From positions 1 through 32,438 of the forward strand of contig NZ_CADFDK010000026.1 of assembly GCF_902832885.1 (NCBI RefSeq): a stretch of 32,438 nucleotides of DNA, given 5' to 3'. Positions within the stretch are counted from its first letter, which is position 1; each line of letters starts with the position of its first letter. This document shows positions 126 through 30,693 of the stretch, piece after piece. Both the position numbers and the translations under genes were made by a program. The notes under the pieces are model-generated. The model made no database searches, had not been told where the DNA came from, and saw nothing but the letters and a program-made list of their open reading frames with translations. The DNA comes from Burkholderia seminalis DSM 23518 (GTDB lineage Bacteria > Pseudomonadota > Gammaproteobacteria > Burkholderiales > Burkholderiaceae).

Positions 126-170
126 CGCGGGGGCGGGCGGCATGGCCGCCTGCCGGGTAGGGCGGCAGAA

Positions 171-198: not shown

Positions 199-243
199 CA
201 TGTCGGAGGGCGGAGCCGTTGACGGCTGCCACCCGGTGCCGCG

Positions 244-1666: not shown

Positions 1667-1672
1667 TAGAAT
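1667..1672 (+). promoter_or_regulatory. Possible -10 box for uvrB
   Basis: TAGAAT lies 32 bases before the preferred uvrB start, which would give a short leader. No convincing -35 box is seen, and no clear LexA site is recognised in the 1444-1703 gap. If this is the -10, the upstream in-frame ATG at 1671 would not be transcribed, which favours the ATG at 1704. Confidence 0.3.
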
Positions 1673-1703
1673 GCTTTCTTTGCCCTTGCTCCGGCCGCAC
1701 TCC

Positions 1704-3794
1704 ATGTCCGAACATCATGCCGAAGTCGGCGACGCGCTCGACGAATCCAAATTCGTCACCTTCGAAGGGTCGCCGTTCCAGCTGTACCAGCCGTATCTGC
1801 CCGCCGGCGACCAGCCGACCGCGATCGAGACGCTTGTCGAAGGCGTCGGCGACGGCCTTGCCTTCCAGACGCTGCTCGGCGTGACGGGGTCGGGCAAGAC
1901 CTTCACGATGGCCAACACGATCGCGCGGCTCGGCCGCCCGGCGATCGTGTTCGCGCCGAACAAGACGCTCGCGGCCCAGCTCTATGCGGAGTTCCGCGAG
2001 TTCTTCCCGCGCAACGCGGTCGAGTACTTCGTCTCGTACTACGACTACTACCAGCCTGAGGCGTATGTGCCGCAGCGCGACCTGTTCATCGAGAAGGATT
2101 CGTCGATCAACGAGCACATCGAGCAGATGCGGCTGTCGGCGACCAAGAGCCTGATGGAGCGCCGCGACGTGGTGATCGTCGCGACGGTGTCGGCGATCTA
2201 CGGTATCGGCAACCCGTCCGAATACCACCAGATGATCCTGACGCTGCGCACCGGCGACAAGCTCGGCCAGCGCGACGTGATCGCGCGGCTGATCGCGATG
2301 CAGTACACGCGCAACGAGCAGGATTTCCAGCGCGGCACGTTCCGCGTGCGCGGCGACACGATCGACATCTTCCCGGCCGAACACGCGGAAATGGCCGTAC
2401 GCGTCGAGCTGTTCGACGACGAGGTCGAGACGCTGCACTTGTTCGACCCGCTGACGGGGCGCGTGCGGCAGAAGATTCCGCGCTTCACCGTGTATCCGTC
2501 GTCGCACTACGTGACGCCGCGCGACACCGTGATGCGGGCCGTCGAGACGATCAAGGAAGAATTGCGCGAACGCCTCGAGTTCTTCCATCGCGAGGGCAAG
2601 CTCGTCGAGGCGCAGCGTCTCGAGCAGCGCACGCGCTTCGATCTCGAGATGCTGCAGGAGCTCGGCTTCTGCAAGGGTATCGAGAACTACTCGCGGCATT
2701 TCTCGGGAGCGGCGCCCGGCGACCCGCCGCCGACGCTCGTCGACTACCTGCCGCCCGATGCGCTGATGCTGCTCGACGAATCGCACGTGCTGATCGGCCA
2801 GTTGAACGGGATGTACAACGGCGACCGCGCGCGCAAGGAAAACCTCGTCAATTACGGGTTCCGCCTGCCGTCGGCGCTCGACAACCGGCCGCTGAAGTTC
2901 CCCGAGTTCGAGCGCAAGATGCGCCAGGTCGTGTTCGTGTCGGCCACGCCGGCCGACTACGAGAAGCGCGTGACGGGGCAGATCGCCGAGCAGGTCGTGC
3001 GGCCGACGGGCCTCGTCGATCCGGAAATCGAGGTGCGGCCCGCGAGCACGCAGGTCGACGACGTGCTGACCGAGATCAACGCGCGCGTGAAGGCCGGCGA
3101 GCGTGTGCTGATCACCGTGCTGACGAAGCGCATGGCCGAGCAGCTCACGGAATTCCTGGCCGACCACGGCGTCAAGGTGCGCTACCTGCACAGCGACATC
3201 GACACGGTCGAGCGCGTCGAGATCATCCGGGACCTGCGGCTCGGCACGTTCGACGTGCTGGTCGGGATCAACCTGCTGCGCGAGGGCCTCGACATTCCGG
3301 AAGTGTCGCTCGTCGCGATCCTCGACGCGGACAAGGAAGGCTTCCTGCGCGCCGAGCGCTCGCTGATCCAGACGATCGGCCGTGCCGCGCGGAACGTGAA
3401 CGGCAAGGCGATTCTCTATGCGGACAACATGACCGATTCGATGACGCGCGCGATCGGCGAGACCGAGCGGCGCCGCGCGAAGCAGATGGCCTACAACGAA
3501 AAGATGGGCATCACGCCGCGCGGCGTCGTGAAGCGCATCAAGGACATCATCGATGGCGTCTACAACGCCGACGACGCGCGTGCGGAGCTGAAAGAAGCGC
3601 AGCAGCGCGCGAAATTCGAGGACATGTCGGAAAAGCAACTCGCGAAGGAAATCAAGCGTCTCGAGAAGCAGATGGCCGATTACGCGAAGAACCTCGAATT
3701 CGAGAAGGCCGCCGCGACGCGCGACCAGCTTGCCGTGCTGCGCGAGCGCGTGTTCGGCGCGAACGTCGGCGACCACATCAGCGGCGGCCGGTAA
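1704..3794 (+). CDS. uvrB: Excinuclease ABC subunit B
   Basis: UvrB is the damage-verifying helicase-like subunit of nucleotide excision repair. It is loaded by UvrA, opens the lesion with its beta-hairpin and recruits UvrC. The 696-residue protein shows Walker A GVTGSGKT (59-66), the hairpin region [10 protein letters not shown] (about 112-121), a DESH motif in place of DEAD, and the helicase motifs [20 protein letters not shown] and QTIGRAARN. The C-terminal UVR domain ([20 protein letters not shown]) binds UvrC. An in-frame ATG exists at 1671, but [17 protein letters not shown] at 1704 is preferred because a possible -10 overlaps the upstream codon. The gene is monocistronic. No obvious T-run terminator follows it. 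Confidence 0.97.
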
Positions 3795-3910
3795 CTCTTT
3801 CCAAGCGTCACCGAAACCTTGCGGTAAAGCGCCTGTAAGCCTTGTCGGATCAGGGGTTTACGTGGCTCTTCGTTTGTTCCGAATCGGGTTCGGTGCTAAA
3901 CTTCGCCATG

Positions 3911-3929
3911 ATTGAGAATTGTTCGCATT
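3911..3929 (+). promoter_or_regulatory. Fur-box-like operator before ftrA
   Basis: ATTGAGAATTGTTCGCATT matches 15 of 19 positions of the Fur-like box before bfd. It sits 92 bases ahead of the ftrA start, in the 227-bp gap after uvrB. Iron repression of the ftr operon by Fur is the inferred role. Confidence 0.65.
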
Positions 3930-4021
3930 AACGTTCTTCGTCGCGTTAGTGTTTCCAGCGGGCGGCCCCGGCGGCGGCCCGGGTGTCGTCAAGATAGTCA
4001 GACAAATAACAAGGAGTGTCC

Positions 4022-4573
4022 ATGTTGGGTTCTTCGTTCATCCGCACGACGGTTGCGGTAGCGGCGGCGCTTGCCGCGATGTCGGCCTCGGCTGCCGAAT
4101 ATCCGATCGGCAAGCAGCAGATCCAGGGCGGCATGGAAATCGGCGCGGTGTACCTGCAGCCGATCACGATGGACCCGGAAGGGATGATGCGCAAGGCGTC
4201 GGATTCCGACATCCACCTCGAGGCCGACATCCATGCGGTCAAGAACAACCCGACGGGTTTCGCGGAGGGCGACTGGATGCCGTACCTGCAGGTCACGTAC
4301 AAGCTGACGAAGCAGGGCGACACGAAGTGGAAGGCTGAAGGCGACCTGATGGGCATGGTCGCGAGCGACGGCCCGCACTATGGCGACAACGTGAAGCTGA
4401 ACGGCCCCGGCAAGTATCACCTGACGATGGTCGTCAAGCCGCCGATGCAGTCGGGCCACATGGCATTCGGCCGCCACGTCGACAAGGAAACGGGCGTGGG
4501 TGCTTGGTTCAAGCCCATCACGCTCGAGTACGACTTCCCGTTCGCCGGTATCGGCAAGAAGGGCGGTTACTGA
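4022..4573 (+). CDS. ftrA: Periplasmic P19-type iron-binding protein FtrA
   Basis: This 183-residue exported protein belongs to the P19/Tp34 (iron transport) family, the periplasmic metal-binding component of FtrABCD-type ferrous iron uptake. A signal peptide occupies residues 1-25 (cleavage after MSASA). The mature part has the metal-site pattern DIHLEADIH (63-71) and a later KYHLTM histidine (about 133), followed by GHMAFGRHVDKETG. The ATG at 4022 follows AAGGAG (4011-4016) at ideal spacing, so it is preferred over the GTG at 4016. It is the first gene of a four-gene set (ftrA, ftrB, ftrC, ftrD), with a Fur-like box upstream. Homologous systems have been characterised in Bordetella, Brucella and Burkholderia; the exact metal chemistry here is inferred. 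Confidence 0.93.
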   Translation: MLGSSFIRTTVAVAAALAAMSASAAEYPIGKQQIQGGMEIGAVYLQPITMDPEGMMRKASDSDIHLEADIHAVKNNPTGFAEGDWMPYLQVTYKLTKQGDTKWKAEGDLMGMVASDGPHYGDNVKLNGPGKYHLTMVVKPPMQSGHMAFGRHVDKETGVGAWFKPITLEYDFPFAGIGKKGGY

Positions 4574-4588
4574 TCGGCAGCATCACGA

Positions 4589-4610
4589 ACGGCGCGCTTC
4601 GGCGCGCCGT
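4589..4610 (+). other. UUCG-loop hairpin between ftrA and ftrB
   Basis: A perfect 9-bp stem (ACGGCGCGC / GCGCGCCGT) closes a TTCG tetraloop, with no T-run after it. Such hairpins usually protect an upstream mRNA end or set relative expression inside an operon rather than terminate. Here it could keep ftrA transcripts more abundant than ftrBCD; that is inference. Confidence 0.6.
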
Positions 4611-4628
4611 CGGCGTAGAGAACCCAGA

Positions 4629-4961
4629 ATGAAAATTCCCCAGAAAATCGTTGCCGCAGCCGCTGCGCTGTGGCTTGCCGGCGCCGCACACGCGGCCGAT
4701 CTGCCGACGTTCAAGCTCGAGATGACGGACGGCAAGCTGAATCCCGCCCGCATCGAGGTGCCGGCCGGCCTGCGTTTCAAGATCGAGATCAAGAACACCG
4801 GCAAGGGCGCCGCCGAATTCGAGAGCGTGCAGTTGCGCAAGGAGAAGGTGCTTGCACCGGGCGCCGATTCGTTCGTGGTCGTCGCTCCGCTGTCGCCGGG
4901 CGAATACAAGTTTTTCGACGATTTCCACCAGCAGGCACAGGGCGTGATCGTCGCGAAGTAA
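4629..4961 (+). CDS. ftrB: Periplasmic cupredoxin-like protein FtrB
   Basis: This 110-residue exported protein has a signal peptide (1-22, ending GAAHA) and a single cupredoxin-like beta-sandwich (Cupredoxin_1 type): LEMTDGKLNPARIEVPAG, then FKIEIKNTGKGAAEFES, SPGEYKFFDDFH and GVIVAK. In FtrABCD systems this subunit is thought to help oxidise Fe(II) at the periplasmic face so the permease can import it. The classical His-Cys-His-Met copper set is not evident, which is common in this subfamily. The start at 4629 is chosen because the signal peptide begins there; an upstream extension in the same frame overlaps ftrA and has no signal sequence. It is the second gene of the operon. Confidence 0.88.
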   Translation: MKIPQKIVAAAAALWLAGAAHAADLPTFKLEMTDGKLNPARIEVPAGLRFKIEIKNTGKGAAEFESVQLRKEKVLAPGADSFVVVAPLSPGEYKFFDDFHQQAQGVIVAK

Positions 4962-5019
4962 CGCGTTTTATCTGCGTGCGGGCGTACGAGTCCCTTGCCC
5001 CGCGCGTCAGGAGGTATCG

Positions 5020-5862
5020 ATGGGTCAGATCTTGTTCATCGTCTGGCGGGAGAGCGTCGAAGCGCTGCTCGTCGTCGGCATTCTCTATGCATGGCTGAAA
5101 AACGGCGACGACGACGCGCGCCGCGGCCTGCCTTTCCTGTGGGCTGGCGTCGGCGTCGGCTTGCTGATGGCCGTCGGCCTCGGCGCCGCGCTGGTCGGTT
5201 TCACCGAAGTGCTGTCCGGCGACGCGCAGGACTACTTCCAGACCGCGATGGTGCTGATCGCGTGCGTGCTGATCGTGCAGATGGTGCTGTGGATGCGCCG
5301 GCACGGCCGCACGCTGAAGCGCGACATGGAGCAATCGCTGCAGCAGAGCACGCGCGATTCGAACTGGTGGGGCGTCGCCGTGCTGGTCGCACTCGCGATC
5401 GCGCGTGAAGGCAGCGAGACCGTGATCTTCCTGTACGGTCTCGGTTTCGGCCAGTCGGGTCACGTCGACGGCAACCAGATGCTCGCGGTCCTGATCGGTC
5501 TCGGCCTAGCGTTCTTCACGTTCTACCTGCTGCAGCTCGGCGGCAAGTACTTCTCGTGGCGGCATTTCTTCCGTGTCACCGAAGTGATGCTGCTGTTCCT
5601 CGGCGCGGGCCTGTTCCAGACGGGTGTCGACAAGCTGATCGACAAGGAAATCCTGCCGCTCGGCATCTCGCAGGTGTGGGATACGTCCGCGATCCTCGAT
5701 GACTCGGGCACGTTCGGCTCGCTCGTCGCGACGCTGACCGGCTATCGTGCGCACCCGGCACTGACCAACCTGGTCGCCTATGCGGTGTACTGGGCCGTCG
5801 TCTGGCTGCTGATGAAGCGCGCGAGCCGCCGTCCGGCCGTCGCCGCGGGCCGCGCGGCATGA
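5020..5862 (+). CDS. ftrC: Iron permease FtrC (FTR1 family)
   Basis: This 280-residue inner-membrane protein of the FTR1/OFeT family has about seven transmembrane helices. The two iron-conducting REXXE motifs are intact: RESVE at residues 10-14 and REGSE at 129-133. It forms the channel of the FtrABCD uptake system, receiving iron from FtrA/FtrB. AGGAGGT sits just before the ATG at 5020, an excellent ribosome binding site. Its stop codon overlaps the next gene (ATGA at 5859-5862), so ftrC and ftrD are probably translationally coupled. Confidence 0.95.
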   Translation: MGQILFIVWRESVEALLVVGILYAWLKNGDDDARRGLPFLWAGVGVGLLMAVGLGAALVGFTEVLSGDAQDYFQTAMVLIACVLIVQMVLWMRRHGRTLKRDMEQSLQQSTRDSNWWGVAVLVALAIAREGSETVIFLYGLGFGQSGHVDGNQMLAVLIGLGLAFFTFYLLQLGGKYFSWRHFFRVTEVMLLFLGAGLFQTGVDKLIDKEILPLGISQVWDTSAILDDSGTFGSLVATLTGYRAHPALTNLVAYAVYWAVVWLLMKRASRRPAVAAGRAA

Positions 5863-7256
5863 GCGTGGTCGCCGCAGTCAAGCCGGGCTGGCTCGCACAG
5901 GCCGGCCAGTGGATGCAGCGCCACGGCGCGCTGATCCGCGGCATCCAGTGGATCGTCGTCGCGGTCTACGCGTTCCTGATCATCGTCCCGGCGGTGTTGC
6001 CGCTGCCGGACGATTCCGCGCATCTGTGGAGCAATCTCACGCTGATCGCGCAGTTCGCGTTCTGGGGCATCTGGTGGCCGTTCGTGCTGCTGTCGATGGT
6101 GATGCTCGGCCGCGTGTGGTGCGGCGTGCTGTGCCCGGAAGGCGCGCTCACCGAATACGCGAGCAAGTTCGGTCGCGGCGGCCCGATTCCGCGCTGGATC
6201 CGGTGGGGCGGCTGGCCGTTCGTCGCGTTCGGGATCACGACGATCTACGGGCAGATGGTGAGCGTGTACCAGTACCCGCTCGCGGTGCTGTTCGTGCTCG
6301 GCGGCTCGACCGTCGGCGCGATCGTGATCGGCTTGCTGTATGGCCGCGAGAAGCGCGTGTGGTGCAAGTACCTGTGCCCGGTGAACGGCGTGTTCGGGCT
6401 GCTCGCGCGGCTCGCGCCGATGCGCTACAAGGTCGACGAGGATGCATGGCGCCGATCGTACAAGAACGGCGAGCACGGCCATCGCGTGATTCCGATCAAC
6501 TGCGCGCCGCTCGTGCCGTTGCGCAGCATGAAGGGGGCGGCGGCGTGCCATATGTGCGGCCGCTGCAGCGGGCATCGCGACGCGATCTCGCTGTCGTTGC
6601 GCTCGCCGTCCGACGAGGTCGTGAACCTCGGTGCGCAGCAGGCGAGCGCGTGGGACACCGCACTGATCCTGTACGGCCTGCTCGGTGTCGCGATCGGCGC
6701 GTTCCACTGGACCGTCAGCCCGTGGTTCGTGCAGATCAAGCAATGGCTCGCGGGCTGGCTGATCGACCGTGACATCACGTGGCCGCTCGAAACGAATGCG
6801 CCGTGGTTCCTGCTCACGCACTATCCGGATCGCAACGACGTGTTCTCCTGGCTCGACGGCGGGCTGATCGTCAGCTACATCGTCGGCACGGGGCTCGTGT
6901 ACGGCACGGCGCTGCTGATATTGCTGGGCGGCGCCACGCTGATGCTCGGCCGCTTCGATCGCGTGCGGCTGCATCATCTCGCGCAGGCACTGATCCCGAT
7001 CGCGGGAGCGGGCGTGTTCCTCGGCCTGTCGGCCACGACGCTGTCGCTGTTGCGCGCCGAGCATGTGCCGCTCGGGTGGGCGACCGACGTGCGCATCGCG
7101 ATCCTGGTCGGCGCCAATGCATGGAGCGCGTGGCTCGCATGGAAAGTGACGGGGCGCTATGCGGCGTGGCCGCGCCGGCTCGCGGCATTCGCGTGGTTCG
7201 CCGTCGGGTTGGCGGTCGTCGACAGTGCGTGGTGGCTGATGTTCTGGGGTTTCTGA
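5859..7256 (+). CDS. ftrD: Polyferredoxin-like membrane protein FtrD
   Basis: This 465-residue integral membrane protein of the NapH/RdxA-like polyferredoxin group is the fourth subunit of FtrABCD. Cysteine clusters are CGVLCPEG (C88, C92), CKYLCPVNG (C169, C173) and C215 with CHMCGRC (C230, C233, C236), enough for iron-sulfur or related redox centres. Hydrophobic helices flank them, including a group after residue 250. In Ftr systems it is proposed to carry electrons released when FtrB oxidises ferrous iron. It overlaps ftrC by four bases, is the last gene of the operon, and is followed by a strong terminator at 7341-7375. Confidence 0.92.
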   Translation: MSVVAAVKPGWLAQAGQWMQRHGALIRGIQWIVVAVYAFLIIVPAVLPLPDDSAHLWSNLTLIAQFAFWGIWWPFVLLSMVMLGRVWCGVLCPEGALTEYASKFGRGGPIPRWIRWGGWPFVAFGITTIYGQMVSVYQYPLAVLFVLGGSTVGAIVIGLLYGREKRVWCKYLCPVNGVFGLLARLAPMRYKVDEDAWRRSYKNGEHGHRVIPINCAPLVPLRSMKGAAACHMCGRCSGHRDAISLSLRSPSDEVVNLGAQQASAWDTALILYGLLGVAIGAFHWTVSPWFVQIKQWLAGWLIDRDITWPLETNAPWFLLTHYPDRNDVFSWLDGGLIVSYIVGTGLVYGTALLILLGGATLMLGRFDRVRLHHLAQALIPIAGAGVFLGLSATTLSLLRAEHVPLGWATDVRIAILVGANAWSAWLAWKVTGRYAAWPRRLAAFAWFAVGLAVVDSAWWLMFWGF

Positions 7257-7375: not shown

Positions 7376-7528
7376 TCACCCTTGTGCGAGAACCAAAAAA
7401 AGTGGCTTGGCTTGCTGCAACGGCTGCTTGAGTGTGTTTGCACGAAGGGGTCTAGATCTCGCGTGCAAGCCGTTACGCTGGCTACTGCCCAACACCTCTC
7501 AGGGAGGTGGTCCCCACAATACTCTGTC

Positions 7529-9490: not shown

Positions 9491-10465
9491 ATGAATATCG
9501 ATGCACATAACCTGAACGACCTGATGTACTTTTCCCAGGTCGTCGAACATGGCGGTTTCTCGGCCGCGGAGCGCGTGCTGGGCATCTCGAAATCGCGCCT
9601 GTCGCGGCGCCTGACCGAACTCGAGGCGGCGCTCGGCGTGCGCCTGCTGCAGCGCTCGACGCGCAAGCTCGCGCTGACCGAGGCGGGCGAGCTGTTCTAC
9701 CAGCATTGCCAGGCGATGCTGGCCGAAGCGCAGGCCGCGATGAACGCGGTGCAGCAGTTGCGCGCGTCGCCGCGCGGTTCGGTGCGGGTCAGCGTGCCCG
9801 TCACGCTGTCGCAGACGATGCTGTCGCGCATCCTGCCCGAATTCCTGCGCCGCTATCCCGAGGTGAAGGTGCACGTCCGCGTGACGAATCGCGTGATCGA
9901 CCTGTTCGAGGATTCGATCGACGTCGCGCTGCGCGTACGCTCGGAACCGCCGCAGAACGCCAACATCGTCGTGCGGCCGCTGTGGCGCACGGAACAGATG
10001 CTGGTCGGCGCGCCGAGCCTGCTGAGCCAGAATGCGCCGCCGCTGGTGCCGGACGACCTGACCGGTTTCGAGACGCTCGATACGCCGAGCGTCGACGGGC
10101 GGCACGTGTTCAACCTGATCGCGCCGGACGGCACGCGTCACGTGCACGAGCATGACCCGCGGCTCGTGACGGCCGACCTGATGACGATCCGCGAGGCCGT
10201 GCTCGACGGCCTCGGCATCGCGGCGCTGCCGGAGATGATGTACGGCAACGCGCTGCGTGCGGGGCAGCTGTCACCCGTGATGCCGGGCTGGACGCTGCCG
10301 GTGCCGCAACTGTATGCGGTGTTCGTGTCGCGGCAGGGGATGCCGCCCGCGGTGCGCGCGTTCGTCGACTACCTGGTCGAGAAGCTCGATCATGGCGCGT
10401 ACAAGGAGCCCGGCTGCCCCGAGCGCGCGAAGAAGGAAGCAGCGGCCGATGTTTCGGCGACCTGA
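9491..10465 (+). CDS. LysR-family transcriptional regulator
   Basis: This 324-residue regulator has an N-terminal winged helix-turn-helix (residues about 7-65: LNDLMYFSQVVEHGGFSAAE, then ISKSRLSRRLTELEAALGV) and a periplasmic-binding-like effector domain (about 95-300). It resembles LTTRs that control divergently encoded pirin or quinone/oxidoreductase genes, and the neighbouring pirin gene is its most likely target. The C-terminal 25 residues (KEPGCPERAKKEAAAD) extend beyond the usual domain. The ATG at 9491 has no strong ribosome binding site, but the HTH begins at the normal distance from it. Confidence 0.92.
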   Translation: MNIDAHNLNDLMYFSQVVEHGGFSAAERVLGISKSRLSRRLTELEAALGVRLLQRSTRKLALTEAGELFYQHCQAMLAEAQAAMNAVQQLRASPRGSVRVSVPVTLSQTMLSRILPEFLRRYPEVKVHVRVTNRVIDLFEDSIDVALRVRSEPPQNANIVVRPLWRTEQMLVGAPSLLSQNAPPLVPDDLTGFETLDTPSVDGRHVFNLIAPDGTRHVHEHDPRLVTADLMTIREAVLDGLGIAALPEMMYGNALRAGQLSPVMPGWTLPVPQLYAVFVSRQGMPPAVRAFVDYLVEKLDHGAYKEPGCPERAKKEAAADVSAT

Positions 10466-10750
10466 ACACAGCGTGCACGACGACGCAAATTTGTTTTGTC
10501 ATTGAAGCGTCGCCTGCAATCGCAAGTTTCAATCGCCGGAACCTTGAATGCGTGCGCGTGCGGGCCTATATTGAAATCCCATTTCGTGAAGGAAGTTCTG
10601 AGCGAAATCAGGTGGCCGCATATATTGTGAGCCAGATAGGGCAGAACGCGCAGTCCGTGCAGACCACGGCAGAGTCGCATTTGCGTTGCTCGAGGCGTAA
10701 CCGATACCGCCGAAGAGCCCGCCGCCCGAAGGCGCCCGCGTGCGCATGAA
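10466..10750. other. Intergenic stretch, no supported gene
   Basis: Between the regulator and the exbD-side terminator I see no convincing gene. Two short open frames on opposite strands (10552-10749 and 10529-10747) have no ribosome binding site and no recognisable protein. Locally AT-rich words (TATATT at about 10565 and 10620) might be promoter debris. Confidence 0.4.
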
Positions 10751-10782
10751 AAAAGGCCTTCATCTGGCGATGAAGGCCTTTT
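10751..10782. terminator. Bidirectional intrinsic terminator
   Basis: A 14-bp stem (AAAAGGCCTTCATC / GATGAAGGCCTTTT) closes a TGGC loop, with A/T runs on both sides. It separates the lysR gene (+) from the tonB-exbBD operon (-). Confidence 0.92.
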
Positions 10783-10866
10783 ACTTTGTGGGCGGCCGGC
10801 TAGGTGTGGCCGGCTAGGTGCGGCCGGCGAGGTGCCTGCGATGCGTTATCGCGAGACGGGCGCGTG

Positions 10867-20906: not shown

Positions 20907-22922
20907 ATGCTGACGCATCGACTGATCCGCGCATACGCGCTCTATACGCTGGGGTTTCTCGGGTTCGTGCTGCTGATGTGGCGGATCGAGCGCGCGACCG
21001 GTTCGGGCGTCTGGATCGGCTATGTGTTCCTGTTCGTGCCGATCGCCGTGTATGCGGTGATCGGGCTGCTGTCGCGCACGTCCGATCTCGTCGAGTACTA
21101 CGTGGCCGGGCGGCGCGTGCCGTCCGCGTTCAACGGGATGGCGACGGCGGCCGACTGGCTGTCGGCCGCGTCGTTCATCGGCCTGGCCGGCTCGCTCTAC
21201 GCGACCGGCTACGACGCGCTCGCGTACATGATGGGCTGGACAGGCGGCTTCTGCCTCGTCGCGTTCCTGCTCGCGCCGTATGTGCGCAAGCTCGCGCGCT
21301 ACACGATTCCCGATTTTCTCGGCACGCGCTTCTCGAGCACGGCCGTGCGCGCGCTCGCGGCCGGCGCGGCGATCCTGTGTTCGTTCGTGTATCTGGTCGC
21401 GCAGATCCAGGGGATCGGCCTGATCGCGACGCGCTTCATCGGCGTCGATTTCGCGATCGGGATCTTCTGCGGGCTCGCCGGCATTCTCGTGTGCTCGTTT
21501 CTCGGCGGGATGCGTGCGGTCACGTGGACGCAGGTCGCGCAGTACATCATCCTGATCAGCGCGATCCTGATCCCGGTGTCGCTGATCGCGATGAAGAACG
21601 GGCTCGGACCCGTGCCGCAATTCAATTACGGCAAGCTGATGGAGCGCGTCGCGGCGCGCGAGGCGCAGGTGCGCGAGGCGTCCGACGAGCAGCGGGTACG
21701 CGACGCGTACCGCCGGCAGGCCGCGGAGATCCAGACGCGACTCGACCGGCTGCCGTCGTCGTATGCGGACGCGCGCCGGCATCTGGTCGACCAGCTGGCC
21801 GACCTGCGACGCCATAACGGGCCGCTGCGCGAGATCAGCCTGCGCGAGCGCGAACTGGCGGACTTCCCGCGCGACCCGGCAGCGGCGCGCGTCGCGTGGA
21901 CGCAGGCGCGCGACGACCTGCTGGCGCGCGCCGAGCCGCCCGTGCCGATGCACGAGCCGTTTCCGGCTGCAAGCGACGACGAACGCAAGCCGCGCGAGCG
22001 CAATTTTCTCGCGCTGCTGCTGTGCCTGTCGCTCGGCACCGCGAGCCTGCCGCACATCCTGACGCGCTACAACACGACGACCTCGGTCGCATCGGCACGA
22101 CGCTCGGTCGGCTGGACGCTGTTCTTCATCGCGCTGTTCTACCTGAGCGTGCCGGTGCTCGCGGTGCTGATCAAGTACGAGATCCTTGCGAACCTCGTCG
22201 GGCGGCCGTTCGCGGAATTGCCGGCGTGGGTCACGCAATGGCATCACTTCGAACCGGACCTGATCAGCGTCGTCGAGGTGATTCGCGACGGGATCGTGCA
22301 CTGGTCGGAAATCCAGATGCAGCCGGACATGGTCGTGCTGGCCGCGCCGGAGATCGCGGGGTTACCGTACGTCGTGTCGGGACTGATCGCGGCCGGTGCA
22401 CTGGCCGCCGCGCTGTCGACCGCTGACGGGCTGCTGCTGACGATCGCGAACGCGCTGTCGCACGACGTGTATTACTGCATGGTCGCACCCGATGCATCGA
22501 GCCAGCGGCGCGTGACGATCTCGAAGGTGCTGCTGCTCGGCGTCGCGCTGTTCGCGTCGTATGTCGCGTCGCTCAATACGGGGAAGATCCTGTTTCTGGT
22601 CGGCGCCGCGTTTTCGCTGGCGGCGTCGAGCTTCTTTCCGGTGCTGGTGCTCGGGGTGTTCTGGAAGCGCACGACGACGCGCGGGGCGATCGCGGGGATG
22701 GTGACGGGGTTGGCGGTGTGCGTGTACTACATCGTGTCGACGTATCCGTATTTCACGCAGTTGACCGGGTTCGCGGGGCGCACGTGGTTCGGGATCGAGC
22801 CGATCAGTTCGGGCGTGTTCGGCGTGCCGGCGGGGTTTGCGGTGGCGATCGCGGTGAGTCTGTGCGACAAGCGGCCGGATGAGTATACGCGGGCGCTGGT
22901 GGATTACATTCGGCATCCGTGA
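20907..22922 (+). CDS. Sodium:solute symporter, VC_2705 subfamily
   Basis: This 671-residue SSS-family transporter has an ActP/PutP-like fold with about 12-13 helices. Family motifs include EYYVAGRRVPSAFNGMATAA (63-82), GTRFSSTAVRA and LPHILTRYNTTT, and LSTADGLLLTIANALSHDVY near helix 10. A hydrophilic, charged, coiled-coil-like block of about 125 residues (about 238-366) interrupts the core, making the protein longer than typical SSS members (about 550). The small DUF4212 subunit precedes it and acs lies upstream, so acetate or another short organic acid is the likely substrate; this is inference. Confidence 0.92.
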   Translation: MLTHRLIRAYALYTLGFLGFVLLMWRIERATGSGVWIGYVFLFVPIAVYAVIGLLSRTSDLVEYYVAGRRVPSAFNGMATAADWLSAASFIGLAGSLYATGYDALAYMMGWTGGFCLVAFLLAPYVRKLARYTIPDFLGTRFSSTAVRALAAGAAILCSFVYLVAQIQGIGLIATRFIGVDFAIGIFCGLAGILVCSFLGGMRAVTWTQVAQYIILISAILIPVSLIAMKNGLGPVPQFNYGKLMERVAAREAQVREASDEQRVRDAYRRQAAEIQTRLDRLPSSYADARRHLVDQLADLRRHNGPLREISLRERELADFPRDPAAARVAWTQARDDLLARAEPPVPMHEPFPAASDDERKPRERNFLALLLCLSLGTASLPHILTRYNTTTSVASARRSVGWTLFFIALFYLSVPVLAVLIKYEILANLVGRPFAELPAWVTQWHHFEPDLISVVEVIRDGIVHWSEIQMQPDMVVLAAPEIAGLPYVVSGLIAAGALAAALSTADGLLLTIANALSHDVYYCMVAPDASSQRRVTISKVLLLGVALFASYVASLNTGKILFLVGAAFSLAASSFFPVLVLGVFWKRTTTRGAIAGMVTGLAVCVYYIVSTYPYFTQLTGFAGRTWFGIEPISSGVFGVPAGFAVAIAVSLCDKRPDEYTRALVDYIRHP

Positions 22923-22965
22923 GGCGGGCGGATGCCGGGCGTGCCGGCGCCCCAAATGAAAAACT

Positions 22966-22987
22966 CCTGATTTCTCGGGATATCAGG
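22966..22987. other. Hairpin after the symporter gene
   Basis: CCTGAT and ATCAGG arms flank a 10-base loop, preceded by AAAAA. It is a possible terminator for the symporter gene or, on the minus strand, the terminator-like hairpin next to the first tRNA-like relic. Confidence 0.45.
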
Positions 22988-23000
22988 GGCGTCATGCATT

Positions 23001-23025
23001 CTGGCGCAGAGAGGGATTCGCCCAC
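23001..23025 (-). other. Possible tRNA 3'-end relic (copy 1)
   Basis: On the minus strand the sequence reads GGGCGAATCCC then TCTCTGCGCCAG, resembling the T-arm, acceptor strand and encoded CCA of a tRNA(Ser)-type gene. The rest of the tRNA is not recognisable. It may be a scar of an earlier integration at the same target. Only 15 bases match the second copy (one mismatch), so this is tentative. Confidence 0.4.
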
Positions 23026-23040
23026 ACGAGCGCGGGCCGC

Positions 23041-23062
23041 GGATTCGCTGGCAAGCGAATCC
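23041..23062. repeat. Perfect hairpin GGATTCGCT/AGCGAATCC
   Basis: A 9-bp stem with a GGCA loop, no T-run. It is followed by TTCGAATCCCCC, which also looks like a tRNA T-loop fragment. It is part of a 170-bp block of stacked secondary structures at the element boundary. Confidence 0.55.
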
Positions 23063-23077
23063 CTTCGAATCCCCCGC

Positions 23078-23103
23078 GCAAGCCGAACTGTCGGCTTGCT
23101 TTT
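23078..23103 (+). terminator. Intrinsic terminator at element boundary
   Basis: The 9-bp stem GCAAGCCGA / TCGGCTTGC with an ACTG loop is followed by TTTTCT. It would stop plus-strand transcripts coming from the symporter side. Confidence 0.75.
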
Positions 23104-23115
23104 CTCCGGAAACGA

Positions 23116-23139
23116 AAATGCCCGCTGGCGCGGGCATTT
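23116..23139. terminator. AAATGCCCGC hairpin next to the att site
   Basis: A 10-bp stem (AAATGCCCGC / GCGGGCATTT) with a TGGC loop. On the minus strand it would follow directly after the tRNA-like 3' end at 23146-23159, the place where a tRNA terminator is expected. Confidence 0.65.
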
Positions 23140-23144
23140 GAATA

Positions 23145-23166
23145 CTGGCGGAGAGAGGGTCCGCCA
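23145..23166. other. Candidate attL of the integrated element
   Basis: CTGGCGGAGAGAGGG (23145-23159) reads on the minus strand as CCCTCTCTCCGCCAG, a typical 3' end of a tRNA(Ser)-type gene with encoded CCA. The sequence diverges from a tRNA after that, as expected where an integrase has joined foreign DNA. The site also forms a perfect 7-bp inverted repeat (TGGCGGA / TCCGCCA). The matching intact tRNA and attR should lie beyond the right edge of the window. Confidence 0.55.
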
Positions 23167-23288
23167 TAATTCAGTGTCGTTCGATGTCGTCAGCTATCCC
23201 GTATCCAGAAAAACCCAGAATAATCAGGGCTATCCCCCAAAAAATCCTCTTGTTTACTTCCAATTGATTGCATAGAATCGCATCAAAG

Positions 23289-23310
23289 GGTGTAGATAGA
23301 GGTGTGGATA
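23289..23310 (+). repeat. Tandem GGTGTNGATA element overlapping the int start (copy A)
   Basis: Two 10-base units, GGTGTAGATA and GGTGTGGATA, are separated by GA; the last base is the first base of the integrase ATG and GAGGTG serves as its ribosome binding site. A 20-of-22 identical copy lies inverted at 29855-29876. It may be an arm-type integrase site or an operator for autoregulation. Confidence 0.6.
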
Positions 23311-24599
23311 TGGCAACGAAATCGGCAGGCGGGCTCCACAAGCTTTCTCCGGTGGGTGTCAGCAAAATGAAGGATCCGGGCTTCCACAACGATGGAGGCG
23401 GCCTGTACCTGCAGGTGTCGCCGACTCTGACCAAGAGCTGGGTCTTTCGGTACAAGCTCCACGGGAAATCGAAGTGGATGGGGCTTGGCTCGCTCAATGC
23501 TGTATCCCTGGCTGATGCGCGCAAGAAGGCCGAGGACTGCCGCCGTTTGCTCGCTGACGGCACCGACCCGATGGAGGCGAAGAACACGCGCAAGGCCCAG
23601 GAGATGCTGAAGGCCGCCACATCGATGACTTTCTCGGAATGCGCAAAGGCATACATCGAGGCGCACTCGGCCGGTTGGAAGAACGCTAAGCACGCATCGC
23701 AGTGGACGAACACGATCGAAACCTACGCCGCGCCGGTGATCGGGGCGTTGGCGATCCAGGATGTCGATACTGGGCTGGTGTTGCGCATCCTCGAGCCGAT
23801 GTGGAAGGACAAGACCGAGACTGCCAGCCGCCTGCGCGGCCGCCTCGAAAACATCCTTGACTGGGCTACGGTTCGGGGACTCCGCCGCGGGGATAACCCT
23901 GCGCGCTGGCGCGGGCATCTCGAAGCGCTCCTGCCGGCCCGCGAGAAGGTCCGGGCTGTACGTCCCATGCCGGCATTGCCGTTCACCCAAGCCGGCGCCT
24001 TCATGGTCGATCTGCGTACTCGTGAAGGTCTCGCAGCGCTCGCGCTCGAGTTCCAAATCCTGACGGCGGCACGTTCCGGCGAGGTGCGTGGCGCAACTTG
24101 GGAAGAGTTCGATCTGGACGCGAAGGTCTGGACCATCCCCGCAGCGCGCATGAAGATGAAGGTTGAGCACTCGGTCCCGCTTTCCACACGCGCGGCGGCG
24201 ATCGTCGAGCGCCTGAGCAAGGCGAAGACCGGCCCGCTCGTCTTTTCCGCGGGCGAGAAGCCGCTTTCAGACATGACGCTGGCTGCCGTGATCAAGCGCA
24301 TGAACGGCGACGGTGAACTGCCGATATGGCGCGACCCGAAGCAACAAAATGCTGCGGTTGTCCCGCATGGTTTCCGCTCGACGTTCCGCGACTGGGCGGC
24401 CGAGCGCACGAGCTATGCCAGCGAAGTCGTCGAGATGGCACTCGCGCACGCAATCGGCAACAAGGTCGAAGCAGCGTATCGGCGCGGCGATCTGTTCGAG
24501 AAGCGCCGCCGGCTGATGAACGAGTGGGCGAAGTTCTGCGCGACAGCAGCCGCCTCGTCTACCGTGGCGTCGATCGGTACGGCGCGCACAGCAGCATAG
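23310..24599 (+). CDS. int: P4-type tyrosine integrase (DUF4102)
   Basis: This 429-residue site-specific recombinase inserts and excises the element. The N-terminal DUF4102 arm-binding domain covers about 8-95 (FHNDGGGLYLQVSPT, then KSKWMGLGSLNAVSLADARK). A SAM-like core-binding domain covers about 105-205. The catalytic domain carries R255 (LTAARSGEVRGATW), a lysine near 282-284, H353 and R356 (PHGFRSTFRDWA), H380 (MALAHAIGN) and the nucleophile Y390 (AAYRRGD), so it should be active. The ATG at 23310 follows GAGGTG; an upstream TTG at 23268 is less likely. It is the first gene of the element, adjacent to the tRNA-like att site, and homologues commonly use tRNA 3' ends. Confidence 0.96.
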   Translation: MATKSAGGLHKLSPVGVSKMKDPGFHNDGGGLYLQVSPTLTKSWVFRYKLHGKSKWMGLGSLNAVSLADARKKAEDCRRLLADGTDPMEAKNTRKAQEMLKAATSMTFSECAKAYIEAHSAGWKNAKHASQWTNTIETYAAPVIGALAIQDVDTGLVLRILEPMWKDKTETASRLRGRLENILDWATVRGLRRGDNPARWRGHLEALLPAREKVRAVRPMPALPFTQAGAFMVDLRTREGLAALALEFQILTAARSGEVRGATWEEFDLDAKVWTIPAARMKMKVEHSVPLSTRAAAIVERLSKAKTGPLVFSAGEKPLSDMTLAAVIKRMNGDGELPIWRDPKQQNAAVVPHGFRSTFRDWAAERTSYASEVVEMALAHAIGNKVEAAYRRGDLFEKRRRLMNEWAKFCATAAASSTVASIGTARTAA

Positions 24600-26355: not shown

Positions 26356-26479
26356 TGCGGCGTGTACGCGCTGCGAGGCGCATAATCGCTTTGCTCCCGT
26401 CTAGGCCGACGGGCCGAAAGCCGGACACCTTCGCCGGCCGGCGGGAGCGCCGAACGAGGGTTGCGTGTGAAGGTGCGCA

Positions 26480-27159: not shown

Positions 27160-27381
27160 ATGCAAGAGCCAACTATCCCCTTCGCCGATCGTTGCCTTCG
27201 CCCGAAGGCTGCCGCAGCCAAGCTCGGCATTAGTGTCAGCACCTTATTCCGGTACGCCAAGAATGATCCGGCCTTCCCGAAGGGCATCAAGATGTCCACC
27301 GCGTGCACTCTGTACCGCGAGTCGGAGCTTGAACGGTATCTGAGCTTCCGCGCTGCCCATCAACCGGCCGTTGCCGCGTAA
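27160..27381 (+). CDS. AlpA-family DNA-binding protein (excisionase/regulator)
   Basis: This 73-residue helix-turn-helix protein of the AlpA/MerR-like excisionase group has the core CLRPKAAAAKLGISVSTLFR then YAKNDPAFPKGIKMS. Family members direct P4-type integrases towards excision or activate int transcription, so this is the likely partner of the integrase at 23310. The ATG at 27160 is seven bases after GGAG; ATG at 27148 lies inside the inverted repeat and is less likely. Being placed nearly 4 kb from int and just before the replication genes is typical of satellites and prophages of this kind. Confidence 0.88.
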   Translation: MQEPTIPFADRCLRPKAAAAKLGISVSTLFRYAKNDPAFPKGIKMSTACTLYRESELERYLSFRAAHQPAVAA

Positions 27382-27392
27382 TCGGAGTGGCG

Positions 27393-27575: not shown

Positions 27576-27829
27576 TGATCACAACCCGCGACCAGGCGCT
27601 CAAGACGCTGCACGCCACGCCGGCCGGCGACTATGAAGCGCGGATGCGCGCGGGGCTTGCGGCGCAGAAGGCTGGGCTTGATTTTCTGGACTGGGTGCAA
27701 TGGCTTGAGTCTCACGGCCATCCGGTCGACCGGGAAGTGCTGGACCGCTTGTGGTACCTGTTCCAATTCGTCTCTGCGCGCGCCATGCGGATCCTCTTCC
27801 TGACCACTCTGATCCGGGAGGCCGCTTGA
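27575..27829 (+). CDS. Hypothetical protein, 84 residues
   Basis: The start overlaps the previous stop by one base (TGATG). The protein is helical and amphipathic (DYEARMRAGLAAQKAGLDFL, then DREVLDRLWYLFQFVSARAM) and ends next to the ATPase start (TTGA overlap). It is a candidate accessory subunit of the replication ATPase by position only; no family is recognised. Confidence 0.7.
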   Translation: MITTRDQALKTLHATPAGDYEARMRAGLAAQKAGLDFLDWVQWLESHGHPVDREVLDRLWYLFQFVSARAMRILFLTTLIREAA

Positions 27830-28983
27830 GCACTGTCCGGAGCATGCGGGACATGAATGCCGTGCTCGCTACGGCACGCAGGGAGGCTGGAGAGGATATG
27901 CCGACCGGCTGGGATTCGTCACCGGCCTCGGACCGCCAGGCCTACGTGATCCGTCGCGCGAGCGAACTGTCCGATATTCCCGCGGCGCTGATGCGCATTA
28001 GCGGCGTAGCTCCGGAAGAAGGCTTGCTTGCCGTCTATGGCCCTCCTGGGTCCGGAAAGTCGTTCCTGGTGGACGACATGGCTATCGCAATCGCGGGCGG
28101 TACCTCTTGGTTCGGACGACACGTGGGGCAGGCACCTGTCGCGCTGGTCGTTCTTGAAGGCGCGGCCGGCAAGGGAAAGCGATTCAAGGCGTGGTGCACG
28201 CACAACCGCGAAGCGCTGCCCGATCAACTCTACGTCATCGTCTCGCAGCCGGTCGACCTTCGCTCGATCGATGACGTCAGCCGCCTTAACGAAGCTCTCG
28301 TGCAGGCCGGCGTCGTCAACGGCGTGGTGATTATCGACACGCTCGCCCAGGCGGCGCCTGGCTACGACGAGAACTCCGGGCAGGACATGAGCATGGTGCT
28401 GGCCGGCTGCCGGATGATTCAGCAAACCGTCGGCGGCCTTGTCGTGCTGGTGCATCACACCCGCAAGGATGACGCGAAGAGCCTGCGGGGCCATAGCAGT
28501 CTGCTCGCGGCACTGGACGGCGCAATCGAGGTCAGGCGTAGCGGTGATCAGCGGGAATGGGTGATCGCCAAGGCCAAGGACGATGCCGACGGCGGGTCTC
28601 ATTCATTCCGGCTGCAAACCGTCGATCTCGGCGTGGACGACGATGGTGAGCCGATCACCAGTTGCGTGGTCGTTCCGGAGGATGCGCCATCCGCTAGTGT
28701 GTCGCGTACAGGCCGGCTGCCCGCAGGATCCAAAATCGGACTAGAAGCGCTGCGTGAGGCGATCGCGGACAAGGGCCGGACGATGGCTGGCTCCAGCAGC
28801 ATCCCCAAGGGCGTGCGTGCGATTGAGGAAGAGGACTGGCGCCGTCAGTTCTATCTGCGCTACGGGAGTGACGAGGGCACGGCCGATACCAAAAGCAAGG
28901 CGTTTCGTCGCGCGAAGCAGGATCTCTTGGGCCGCGGACTTGTGATGATGTCGGCGCCGTTCGTCTGGATGGTGGGCAAGTGA
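27826..28983 (+). CDS. RepA/KaiC-like hexameric ATPase (AAA_25), putative replicative helicase
   Basis: This 385-residue RecA-fold ATPase resembles the hexameric RepA helicases of IncQ plasmids and many phage replication proteins. Walker A GPPGSGKS is at 72-79, Walker B VVIIDTL has D171, and HHTRKDD (210-216) matches the conserved HHTxK sensor. The C-terminal part (about 300-385) contains a helical, basic region that may bind DNA. The TTG at 27826 overlaps the previous stop (TTGA) and has GGGAGG five bases upstream, so it is preferred; ATG codons at 27844 and 27853 are alternatives. The CCGGACA-repeat region starts immediately after it, the layout expected of a replication initiator/helicase beside its origin. 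Confidence 0.9.
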   Translation: MSTVRSMRDMNAVLATARREAGEDMPTGWDSSPASDRQAYVIRRASELSDIPAALMRISGVAPEEGLLAVYGPPGSGKSFLVDDMAIAIAGGTSWFGRHVGQAPVALVVLEGAAGKGKRFKAWCTHNREALPDQLYVIVSQPVDLRSIDDVSRLNEALVQAGVVNGVVIIDTLAQAAPGYDENSGQDMSMVLAGCRMIQQTVGGLVVLVHHTRKDDAKSLRGHSSLLAALDGAIEVRRSGDQREWVIAKAKDDADGGSHSFRLQTVDLGVDDDGEPITSCVVVPEDAPSASVSRTGRLPAGSKIGLEALREAIADKGRTMAGSSSIPKGVRAIEEEDWRRQFYLRYGSDEGTADTKSKAFRRAKQDLLGRGLVMMSAPFVWMVGK

Positions 28984-28996
28984 GCGCGAAAAACAC

Positions 28997-29224
28997 CCGG
29001 ACAAACCGGACAAATTGCCTCCGGACAACCCCGGACACGACCCGGACAAATACGCACGCGCGTTCGCTCCTTCGGTTGATCACCCGAATCTCTGCAAGCC
29101 ATGCTGCATGGGCCTTCCGCCGCAATTGCGTACTTGCCACCCGGACATTTGTCCGGCCTATGTCCGGCCCTGTCCGCCCCGGACGGACACGGACACACCC
29201 CTATAAGGGGTGTCCGGTGTCCGG
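28997..29224. repeat. Cluster of CCGGACA repeats (candidate iterons/origin)
   Basis: CCGGACA occurs on the plus strand at 28997, 29006, 29021, 29031, 29042 and 29141, and on the minus strand (TGTCCGG) at 29150, 29161, 29211 and 29218. That is ten copies in 228 bases, with the first five spaced 9-15 bases apart. The 28984-29397 stretch has no well-supported gene. A frame starting GTG at 28980 crosses it, but its repeats translate to low-complexity Thr/Arg/Pro. Position between a hexameric ATPase and SSB/nuclease genes suggests an origin of replication. Confidence 0.7.
29185..29222. repeat. Long imperfect hairpin inside the repeat cluster
   Basis: A perfect 8-bp stem (ACACCCCT / AGGGGTGT, loop ATA, 29195-29213) sits at its centre. 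An alternative extended pairing stacks GGAC/GTCC and GGACAC/GTGTCC outside an inner 6-bp stem with small bulges. It could be a single-strand initiation site or transcription terminator; no T-run follows. Confidence 0.65.
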
Positions 29225-29397
29225 GTCCGGTGTCCAAGCAGGTGCAAGTGGTGCGGAAAACACAGCTTCAAGGAGCGTCGCGATCGGTGGTGATGACGCT
29301 GCAGGTGCTGACACGTTCAGGGGTGAGAAGAGGGCAATTTCCCCTGAAATATGTTGGCGAGCAGCATTTTTTGAAACACAACCCATAGGAGTGCTAA

Positions 29398-29586
29398 ATG
29401 GCGGCAGAGCAAGAACGGCTCAAATCCTGGAGCGACTTCATGGGCGCGGTGCATGCCGGCAAGCGTGGCGACTACGGTCCTGCCAAGGCGATCGTGGAGC
29501 GCGTGCGGGCTCGGTTTGGCGACCATGCGGCAGCAGCGCAGCGTCGGGAGCTGTGGCGGCTTATTCGAGCGGGAGTGCCGAAATGA
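29398..29586 (+). CDS. Hypothetical protein, 62 residues
   Basis: AGGAG lies seven bases before the ATG at 29398. The protein is small, basic and helical (WSDFMGAVHAGKRGDYGPAK, then AAAQRRELWRLIRAGVPK). Its stop overlaps the next gene by four bases (ATGA). It heads the post-origin operon. No family is recognised. Confidence 0.72.
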   Translation: MAAEQERLKSWSDFMGAVHAGKRGDYGPAKAIVERVRARFGDHAAAAQRRELWRLIRAGVPK

Positions 29587-29786
29587 TCTACGGAGAGATG
29601 GAGCGAGCGCAGAGCGTTGCTAGCCGATGCGCGCAGCAAGGAATCAAGGCTGATGGCAATGAGATCGTGCGCGAGCTAGTGGATGAGCTGTCCAGGTCCG
29701 GCGCGCGGATGCCGGAATCGACACGCGACGTTCTGCGACACGCTGCAGCTCAGGTGCTTTTGCTGCTGAGAGAGGTGTCGAAATGA
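29583..29786 (+). CDS. Hypothetical protein, 67 residues
   Basis: The start overlaps the previous stop (ATGA). The protein is helical: MERAQSVASRCAQQGIKADG, then IVRELVDELSRSGARMP and LRHAAAQVLLLLREVSK. It could be an accessory of the nuclease or SSB made from the same mRNA; no family is recognised. Its stop region also carries an ATG in the frame of the next gene. Confidence 0.72.
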   Translation: MIYGEMERAQSVASRCAQQGIKADGNEIVRELVDELSRSGARMPESTRDVLRHAAAQVLLLLREVSK

Positions 29787-29854
29787 GCGCACGGCGGAGG
29801 GTGTGTCCGCCTACTGGCTATATGCAGAAAGGCAATCGAGCCGATCAAGAATCG

Positions 29855-29876
29855 TATCCACACCTATATCAACACC
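29855..29876 (-). repeat. Tandem GGTGTNGATA element, inverted copy B
   Basis: On the minus strand GGTGTTGATA-TA-GGTGTGGATA, identical at 20 of 22 positions to copy A at the integrase start. It lies 12 bases before the preferred start of the nuclease gene, in a stretch with codon use unlike the genes on either side. Confidence 0.6.
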
Positions 29877-29887
29877 TGAGGCGAGAA

Positions 29888-30307
29888 ATGGGCCTGAAAT
29901 CGAGAGCGAAGGGAAAGGTCGGCGAGCGCGAGATCGCGCGCATTGTCGCCAGCCTGACCGGATGGACTGTGATCCGCAAGGTGCGCCAGCGCGACGGTGA
30001 ATCCGACCTTGAAGGTGTCCCCGGCTGGAGCGTGGAGTGCAAGCGGTATGCAACCGCGACCCGAGCCGATATCCGCGAGTGGTACGCGCAGGCAGCACGC
30101 CAGGCGACGGCAGAGGGCAAGCTGCCCGTCCTGTTTTATCGCCTCGATCGAGACGAATGGCGCGCCGTGTGGCCGGTGTCGATCGGGCTGGCGGTACAGC
30201 ACGGTTGCATGTGGAGCGGCTACGAGTGGACCTGCGAGGGTTCAGTTGAGGCCTGGGCGGCGATCGCTGCTGATTGCGTGGCGAGGCAGCAAGGAGCGAC
30301 GACATGA
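29888..30307 (+). CDS. PD-(D/E)XK nuclease, Holliday-junction-resolvase type
   Basis: This 139-residue protein resembles phage and archaeal Hjc-like resolvases. Residues E13 (VGEREIARIV), D40 (GESDLEG) and E50/K52 (SVECKRY) form the canonical alpha-D-ExK nuclease site, and a helix follows (REWYAQAARQA). It probably cleaves branched DNA arising during replication or recombination of the element. The start at 29888 (GAGG upstream) fits the usual MG-x-SR N-terminus. A longer form from ATG 29783, which overlaps the previous stop by four bases, would add 35 residues of atypical codon use that contain repeat copy B. Its stop overlaps the ssb-like start (ATGA). Confidence 0.85.
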   Translation: MGLKSRAKGKVGEREIARIVASLTGWTVIRKVRQRDGESDLEGVPGWSVECKRYATATRADIREWYAQAARQATAEGKLPVLFYRLDRDEWRAVWPVSIGLAVQHGCMWSGYEWTCEGSVEAWAAIAADCVARQQGATT

Positions 30308-30693
30308 CCATCGACGCACTGGTAGCAGGAACGCTGTTCAAGGAGCCGGAAGAGCGCCCAGGACAGAGCGGCAGGACCTTCGTCACGGCGACCGTCCGCG
30401 CGGCCGATGGCGGCGGCGAATCGCTGTTCGTCTCTGTTGTGGCGTTCAGCAACACGGCGAAGGCCACATTGCTTGCGCTTGAGGACGGCGACAGTGTGGC
30501 GCTCACCGGGGCGCTCAAGATCGGCACGTATGAGGCACGCGACGGGTCGGTGAAGCCGAACGTCAGCATGGTGGCGGCGCAGGTGCTCACTGCTTACCAC
30601 GTGCAGCGCAAGCGCAAGGCAGTTGCCGATGCCGGTGACAAGAAGCAACCCGCAATGGCTGGCGGGATGGACGACAGCCTCGACGACCTCTAA
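30304..30693 (+). CDS. ssb: Single-stranded DNA-binding protein
   Basis: This 129-residue OB-fold protein of the phage/plasmid SSB group has the core FVTATVRAADGGGESLFVSV, then VAFSNTAKATLLAL and DSVALTGALKIGTYEARDG. It ends in an acidic tip (MDDSLDDL) similar in character to, but not the same as, the DDIPF tip of housekeeping SSBs that recruits partner enzymes. It likely coats single strands made by the element's helicase. The ATG overlaps the nuclease stop (ATGA), so they are cotranslated. Confidence 0.88.
   Translation: MTIDALVAGTLFKEPEERPGQSGRTFVTATVRAADGGGESLFVSVVAFSNTAKATLLALEDGDSVALTGALKIGTYEARDGSVKPNVSMVAAQVLTAYHVQRKRKAVADAGDKKQPAMAGGMDDSLDDL

Follow-up and report, generated by a model that had tools for sequence, protein, structure and literature searches.

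The alpha protein of phage P4, which acts with ori and crr, is at once a primase, a helicase and an origin-binding protein, and the oriV of plasmid RSF1010 combines iterons with hairpins that serve as single-strand start sites (ssi). Passages of PMC8965321 report that RepC melts oriV of RSF1010 before RepA is loaded, group the AAA_25 family with RepA, and ascribe 5'-3' helicase activity to GP46 of phage F13, a protein related to both; other RepA proteins are treated in parts of PMC7157519 and PMC7145576. In Staphylococcus aureus pathogenicity islands (SaPIs), the C-terminal domain of Rep recognises iterons downstream, and Cch2 of the staphylococcal cassette chromosome SCCmec is covered in the same passages (PMC7581432). 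The Pri-Rep-ori unit of SaPIs and of EfCIV drives plasmid replication, and the pri-rep-ori of EcCICFT073 was put to the test too (passages of PMC6092414). Parts of PMC4234260 describe that pRN1 requires a stem-loop just downstream of its replication gene, that this stem-loop works when moved, and that the protein, ORF904, ends in a winged helix. Here we describe a comparable locus in Burkholderia seminalis DSM 23518, on a contig of 32,438 nucleotides analysed in its entirety (hereafter the window) from a genome of 8 Mb. Directly behind the gene of a RepA-like helicase lies an array of the word CCGGACA with a hairpin, which from its sequence is very likely the replication origin of a prophage. 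More specifically, we consider it quite probable that 28984-29240 is the origin of a prophage inserted at a tRNA-Ser gene, that the CCGGACA words are iterons read by the C-terminus of the helicase encoded upstream, and that this helicase loads itself.

CCGGACA occurs in ten exact copies between 28997 and 29224, six direct and four inverted, just as a first-pass annotation made from the letters had counted. In 228 bases about 0.04 copies would be expected, giving a Poisson P of about 1e-21; the whole window holds 17 against 5.15 expected. The densest rival 7-mer clusters reach four copies per 228 bases in 1-28950 and three from 29300 onward. Five direct copies open the array on the forward strand (starts 28997, 29006, 29021, 29031 and 29042; span 28997..29048), with the spacings of 9, 15, 10 and 11 bases that had been reported. 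They are followed by a middle group at 29141..29167, made of a direct copy at 29141 and inverted copies at 29150 and 29161, and by two inverted copies on the reverse strand (starts 29211 and 29218; span 29211..29224) at and after the right arm of the hairpin. The hairpin itself, at 29191..29215, reads GGACACACCC-CTATAAG-GGGTGTCC, its left arm being longer than the right by two bases (AC). The description of an inverted block around the hairpin thus holds in part: some inverted words do flank it, but others are placed a good distance to its 5' side. Read as the six-letter CGGACA, the array contains 13 copies, in the order six direct, three inverted, two direct, hairpin, two inverted. Several short direct repeats beside a rep gene, the general mark of an iteron origin, are therefore present. 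As single-stranded DNA, 28984-29400 folds better than its shuffles (z -3.15, with 0 of 100 as good), for which the inverted words alone may account.

The hairpin recurs well beyond this genome. The pattern GGACACACCCN{3,10}GGGTGTCC matched 102 stretches of IMG/VR, compared with three for the reversed pattern used as a control, and is scarce in the host family (two of 299 genomes, our own included). By eye, most IMG/VR matches carry direct words before the hairpin and inverted words after it, some with few words, and the letters adjoining GGACA change jointly within an element. An Azoarcus relative whose helicase shares 42% identity has, where its helicase open reading frame (ORF) ends, a hairpin of the same type in the same layout, with the word CGGGACA. 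Together with the window locus and one locus from a family genome, the IMG/VR stretches make up 104 hairpin loci. We called a locus helicase-linked where a RepA-like helicase on the same strand ended between -500 and +120 of the hairpin, and this was so at 70 of the 104 (70 of 95 counting only loci with at least 600 bp to the left); at 70% identity these 70 form 44 clusters. AAA_25 was found in all 36 aligned helicases, the window's among them, while primase parts vary or are absent (PriCT_2 in 11, Toprim_3 in 9, Prim-Pol in 8). The commonest hairpin middles, counted in this hairpin-selected and redundant set, are CTATAG (27/104) and CTTTAG (21/104). At two loci (L105 and L117) the hairpin is overlain by a helicase-like ORF on the opposite strand, possibly an inverted arrangement. 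Five others (L024, L044, L045, L059 and L113) have a hairpin and few words, with no RepA-like helicase found within 4 kb (the left flank is short in L059 and L113); these may use another replication protein.

We also approached the module from the helicase side, gathering loci by protein similarity (at most 80 per list) with queries of which two, A2 and A3, were built from hairpin-bearing loci. The 178 loci comprised 155 from L141-L298 (158 loci, 157 with a helicase hit and 155 with enough sequence) and 23 others, namely L009-L023, six named-phage loci, L128 (found via its hairpin) and the window; at 70% identity, 116 were non-redundant. An array was defined as at least seven copies of one six-mer between -60 and +400 of the helicase stop, and 72 of the 116 loci carry one. 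The top six-mer count averages 7.58, compared with means of 3.42 for shuffles and 3.89 for other windows, and 66 loci beat all 40 shuffles as well as every other window of their own locus. Across the arrays 43 different six-mers occur, partly shifted readings of one word (e.g. CGGACA/CCGGAC); words on metagenome contigs include CGCATA, CGCTAA, GGTTAT and GTACCG. A CCGGACA cluster in L012 (a metagenome viral contig, 1740-2190) was set aside, being a tandem repeat within long ORFs that mixes CCGGACACC and CCGTCCACC units.

What these arrays share is a layout. A hairpin lies between opposed words in 70 of 72 (two are without), and 31 of these 70, including the window, follow the order direct, inverted, direct, hairpin, inverted, compared with a mean of 11.2 and a maximum of 21 in 1000 shuffles of the signs. 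A loose C..T..A..G pattern of the hairpin core is found in 51 of 70, a figure given without a control. Among 362 distances of 5-44 bases between neighbouring words of the same orientation, 208 are 8-11 and the peak is at 10, a spacing expected of proteins bound on one face of duplex DNA. Conservation across related elements, which had been proposed as a check, is thus of a divided kind: the layout recurs and the 7-mer itself differs between elements. From its sequence, CCGGACA seems to be a single dialect within a self-read type of origin that is widespread.

That the helicase acts as its own initiator is supported most strongly by the way the word tracks its C-terminal domain. Across 172 loci (14,356 pairs), similarity between words correlated with identity of the C-terminal part (rho 0.293) and not with that of the ATPase core (rho 0.006). 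Because some helicase ORFs run into the array, we repeated the test in a refined form, taking words only after the stop and excluding the last ten residues. Of the 172 loci we left out 44 whose helicase ORF held at least two words within its final 260 nt, as well as 19 whose arrays were short or weak; dereplication of the remaining 109 gave 78, the window included. The C-terminal domain then gave a rho of 0.325, which 0 of 300 permutations reached (the permutation of labels does not model the tree), compared with 0.065 for the ATPase core (14/300), 0.088 for its first half (4/300), 0.059 for its second half (28/300) and 0.084 for the linker (7/300). With the core held constant, the C-terminus kept a partial rho of 0.325; with the C-terminus held constant, that of the core was -0.060. 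Likewise, the nearest neighbour has a similar word (score at least 5) in 46% of cases when chosen by C-terminus and in 32% when chosen by core. In the window the proposed word reader corresponds to 28711..28980 on the forward strand, where in addition to the covariation a conserved W-R and R-AF-RA type motif is found; from this motif we suspect a winged helix. Through the recurring layout behind RepA-like helicases, the change of word and its tie to the C-terminus, the iteron origin that the first-pass annotation had read from the arrangement of the window is now well supported by comparison.

The same module is found in named phages and plasmids. Rhizobium phages 16-3 and RHph_X2_25 share the array word GCGTGACA, and Roseobacter phage CRP-823 has ACTACAAA; of all copies of these eight-letter words in the genome, 10/10 in CRP-823, 13/17 in 16-3 and 14/17 in RHph_X2_25 lie inside the array. 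The six-letter words of two Manatee Spring phages are less confined, with just 8/20 and 5/25 copies inside. A DNA search with 27700-29800 of the window against named phages gave no match. Three circular plasmid records with phage genes carry the module, namely pMRAD08 (21 kb), unnamed4 of Methylobacterium currus (35 kb) and Caenibius p1 (38 kb). The arrays of the latter two hold 8 words against 6 elsewhere and 13 against 6 elsewhere, respectively, and no other plasmid replication protein is named in the incomplete gene tables of the three. Circular plasmid records with this gene content are consistent with autonomous replication by helicase and array. Moreover, a copy of the module inside a Xanthobacter plasmid has integrase, helix-turn-helix (HTH) protein, ATPase and array in this order, with unassigned genes between.

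Starting from the computed array, helicase linkage, shared layout, change of word within elements and tie between word and C-terminus, we propose how such an origin could work. The RepA-like helicase, whose gene lies immediately upstream, would use its C-terminal domain to recognise the CCGGACA words as iterons in duplex DNA. Subunits bound to words of either orientation around the palindromic hairpin, with its CCCC-TATA-GGGG core, would thereby be gathered and might then open the hairpin or extrude it as a cruciform. The ring helicase could load itself onto the exposed strand without a separate RepC-type initiator, the hairpin might act as a single-strand initiation site, and the neighbouring single-strand DNA-binding protein (SSB) and a host or phage primase would act next. 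In this way the excised circle of the prophage might be replicated. Extending this to other elements, we lean towards the view that RepA-like helicases with a RecA fold, in phages, prophages and plasmids, form a large class of self-loading initiators. Each would read its own word with its C-terminus at an origin of standard layout (direct, inverted, direct, hairpin, inverted), and the many dialects, built on one recurring hairpin core, would set the sharing or exclusion of replication among elements.

Several observations weigh against this interpretation. As many as 44 of the 116 helicase loci have no six-mer with at least seven copies in the tested window, although Azoarcus L009 is counted here only because its helicase ORF extends across the array; another window also reaches seven at 24 of the 116. 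At least 12 of the 158 loci gathered by helicase lie on contigs already found by their hairpin, so the two sets are not independent; because of this overlap, and because queries A2 and A3 came from hairpin-bearing loci, the array frequencies are biased upward. Additionally, 25 of the 95 well-flanked hairpin loci lack a linked helicase as we defined it; at some unlinked loci a helicase is present but falls outside the definition in its distance, strand or score. Five relatives from the genus (L004-L008) have no CCGGACA cluster, the only word sought there. Among the phages, extremes of GC skew fall at the array in none of five complete genomes, Burkholderia phage BcepGomr, despite a comparable hairpin following the RepA gene, has a top six-mer count of just 4, Caulobacter phage GB2A has no array behind its helicase, and in phage MW202711 the array is about 3 kb away from repA. 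In pMRAD08 the array holds 9 words and the best other window 8. Furthermore, a profile of the C-terminal part compared by sequence with the PDB gave six matches, none convincing (best E 0.72).

Could the array serve something other than replication? The words might be operators that let the helicase, or some other regulator, govern transcription of the nuclease and SSB genes, with replication starting elsewhere. The array does sit between two co-directional genes, GC skew provides no origin signal there, and iteron arrays often autoregulate too. We nonetheless think this unlikely: the gene linked to the array is the upstream helicase, at 70 of 104 hairpin loci, whereas annotated cases vary in the genes on the far side; a search of 28900-29450 revealed no sigma-70-like promoter; and a palindromic core flanked by opposed words would be unexpected of plain operators. 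Still less probable is a structured leader, attenuator or terminator that ends the helicase transcript. For such an RNA element speak the position of the hairpin directly behind the gene and the better-than-shuffled fold of the region, obtained with DNA parameters. Yet no T-run follows the hairpin at 29191-29215, the sole terminator-like site near the array is on the opposite strand (29012-28994, with 0.6 expected in shuffles), and no Rfam family reaches threshold over the array, so that the Rfam, promoter and terminator scans support no known RNA family, terminator or promoter here. Many direct copies with fewer inverted partners also do not form one fold, and the spacing of 8-11 bases points to duplex DNA.

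A packaging, recombination or partition site that came to lie near the helicase by chance is, in our judgement, less probable again. The VRR-NUC nuclease gene that follows in 16-3 and RHph_X2_25 would suit it, but in phage 16-3 the cos end and attP are annotated elsewhere, and the word tracks the C-terminus of the helicase. We give almost no credence to a coding or low-complexity repeat without function as DNA. One frame of the window, 28980-29786, does stay open through the array, which counts against an origin as well, and in some relatives the helicase ORF extends into the repeats. A conserved protein frame was a finding that the first-pass annotation had said would overturn its proposal. 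We see no such frame: at least one forward frame is open in 46 of 72 arrays, and the open frames are spread over each of the three registers counted from the helicase (17, 29 and 25 frames). Moreover, words are found on both strands, and it is the layout that recurs, with the words varying from one element to the next.

The genes around the array agree with a prophage. A left attachment core of 15 bases, CTGGCGGAGAGAGGG, lies at 23145..23159, where matches to relatives stop, and a second copy is found on another contig of the assembly (C1:7650-7664), at the 3' end of tRNA-Ser(GGA). Used as a query, the left flank (22700-23267) was matched in 61 of 61 genus genomes, our own included; four relatives match in a single piece up to 23159, and 14 more have a second piece stopping there. 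C1 further carries, at 57-6114, transposase, Bbp16, terminase small and large subunit and tail-spike families, the large-subunit (TerL)-like and tail-spike families being at C1:3033-6111. From the pair of attachment sites we infer that the window (contig C26) and C1 belong to one element. Given this pair at tRNA-Ser and the structural genes on C1, a prophage that sits in tRNA-Ser and whose assembly is broken is the most likely identity of the element. A phage-inducible chromosomal island (PICI), as usually defined, has no TerL and tail genes of its own, and the element does have them if C1 belongs to it. Beside these structural genes, near the start of C1 (57-1316), there is a Mutator-family transposase, perhaps the cause of the assembly break within the prophage.

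From left to right on the forward strand, the prophage part of the window encodes a tyrosine integrase (23268..24599; Pfam Phage_integrase, Phage_int_M and Arm-DNA-bind_3), an int-alpA RNA (26394..26460; Rfam RF02996, 55.2 bits), an AlpA-type regulator (27160..27382; Pfam Phage_AlpA, 2.8e-07) and the proposed initiator, the RepA-like AAA_25 helicase (27826..28983; Pfam AAA_25, 3.4e-33; PHROGs helicase/primase families), in which no primase family was found. Behind the array follow two small ORFs (29398..29586 and 29583..29786), neither with a PHROGs family, a PDDEXK or RusA-like nuclease (29783..30307; Pfam PDDEXK_15, 9.8e-10; phrog_244) and the SSB (30304..30693; Pfam SSB, 6.7e-09); unassigned ORFs lie between the named genes. 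The array had been placed directly between the ATPase and the nuclease/SSB operon. The ATPase indeed adjoins it, but the two small ORFs precede the nuclease and SSB genes. The int-alpA RNA holds one CCGGACA (26421-26427), and an inverted copy lies at 26551. Burkholderia RNAs are present in the window according to Rfam, among them the small RNAs BTH_s39 and ncS011 at 7394-7522 and 10578-10785, upstream of the prophage.

Initiator helicases that read iterons directly downstream are known. Their counterpart among RecA-fold RepA-like helicases, with a recurring hairpin and many words, was not found in the open-access literature, where we also met no description of such a module as a whole and nothing that explains how the RepA-like helicases of phages are directed to their start (most subscription papers are outside that scope). 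If our reading is true, the origins of many phages and plasmids could be located from sequence alone. The pairing of helicase and word would become predictable, opening the coevolution of a DNA-reading domain and its target to study, and the word might serve as a marker of replication compatibility between elements that share a cell.

How does the locus compare with the systems named at the outset? Phage P4 and its alpha protein differ from it in helicase class, sites and layout. RSF1010 loads a hexameric RepA-type helicase at an iteron origin, as the window may do with its helicase of the AAA_25 family. Compared whole with the PDB by sequence, the window helicase matched general AAA ATPases among the best 60 of 145 matches, which do not include RepA. 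A difference is that RSF1010 uses a separate RepC, whereas here the word tracks the helicase's own C-terminus. No RepC-like family was found by Pfam and PHROGs among the window ORFs scanned, which cover the element in part. The island of E. coli CFT073, which from its gene content we take to be EcCICFT073, has the order integrase, HTH, primase-helicase, gap, ORF, SSB, and its helicase matches D5_N and DUF5906. In its gap (9996-10284 of our locus L300), between the D5-type primase-helicase and the ORF before SSB, GTAGAC-type words lie on both strands; inspection by eye showed no CCCC-GGGG hairpin among them. With pRN1 the window shares a stem-loop behind the replication gene; that system, in the parts of PMC4234260 concerned with it, has an SF3 helicase, no iterons and a stem-loop of unconserved sequence, while here iterons and a recurring hairpin core occur together. 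In SaPIs and PICIs a helicase gene is followed directly by an origin of short iterons (passages of PMC7581432 and PMC6092414), and Gram-negative PICIs also carry AlpA and an integrase (PMC6092414, in part). The window array shares this position behind the helicase, and covariation is what argues for C-terminal specificity here. The helicases described for SaPI and SCC elements are of the D5_N or DUF927 type (passages of PMC7581432), whereas ours is AAA_25; two sets of iterons flank an AT-rich region in PICIs (PMC6092414, in part), whereas here the hairpin is GC-rich; and with its terminase and tail families the element looks like a prophage. By analogy, the window module looks to work like the SaPI Rep-ori, but with a helicase of the RecA fold.
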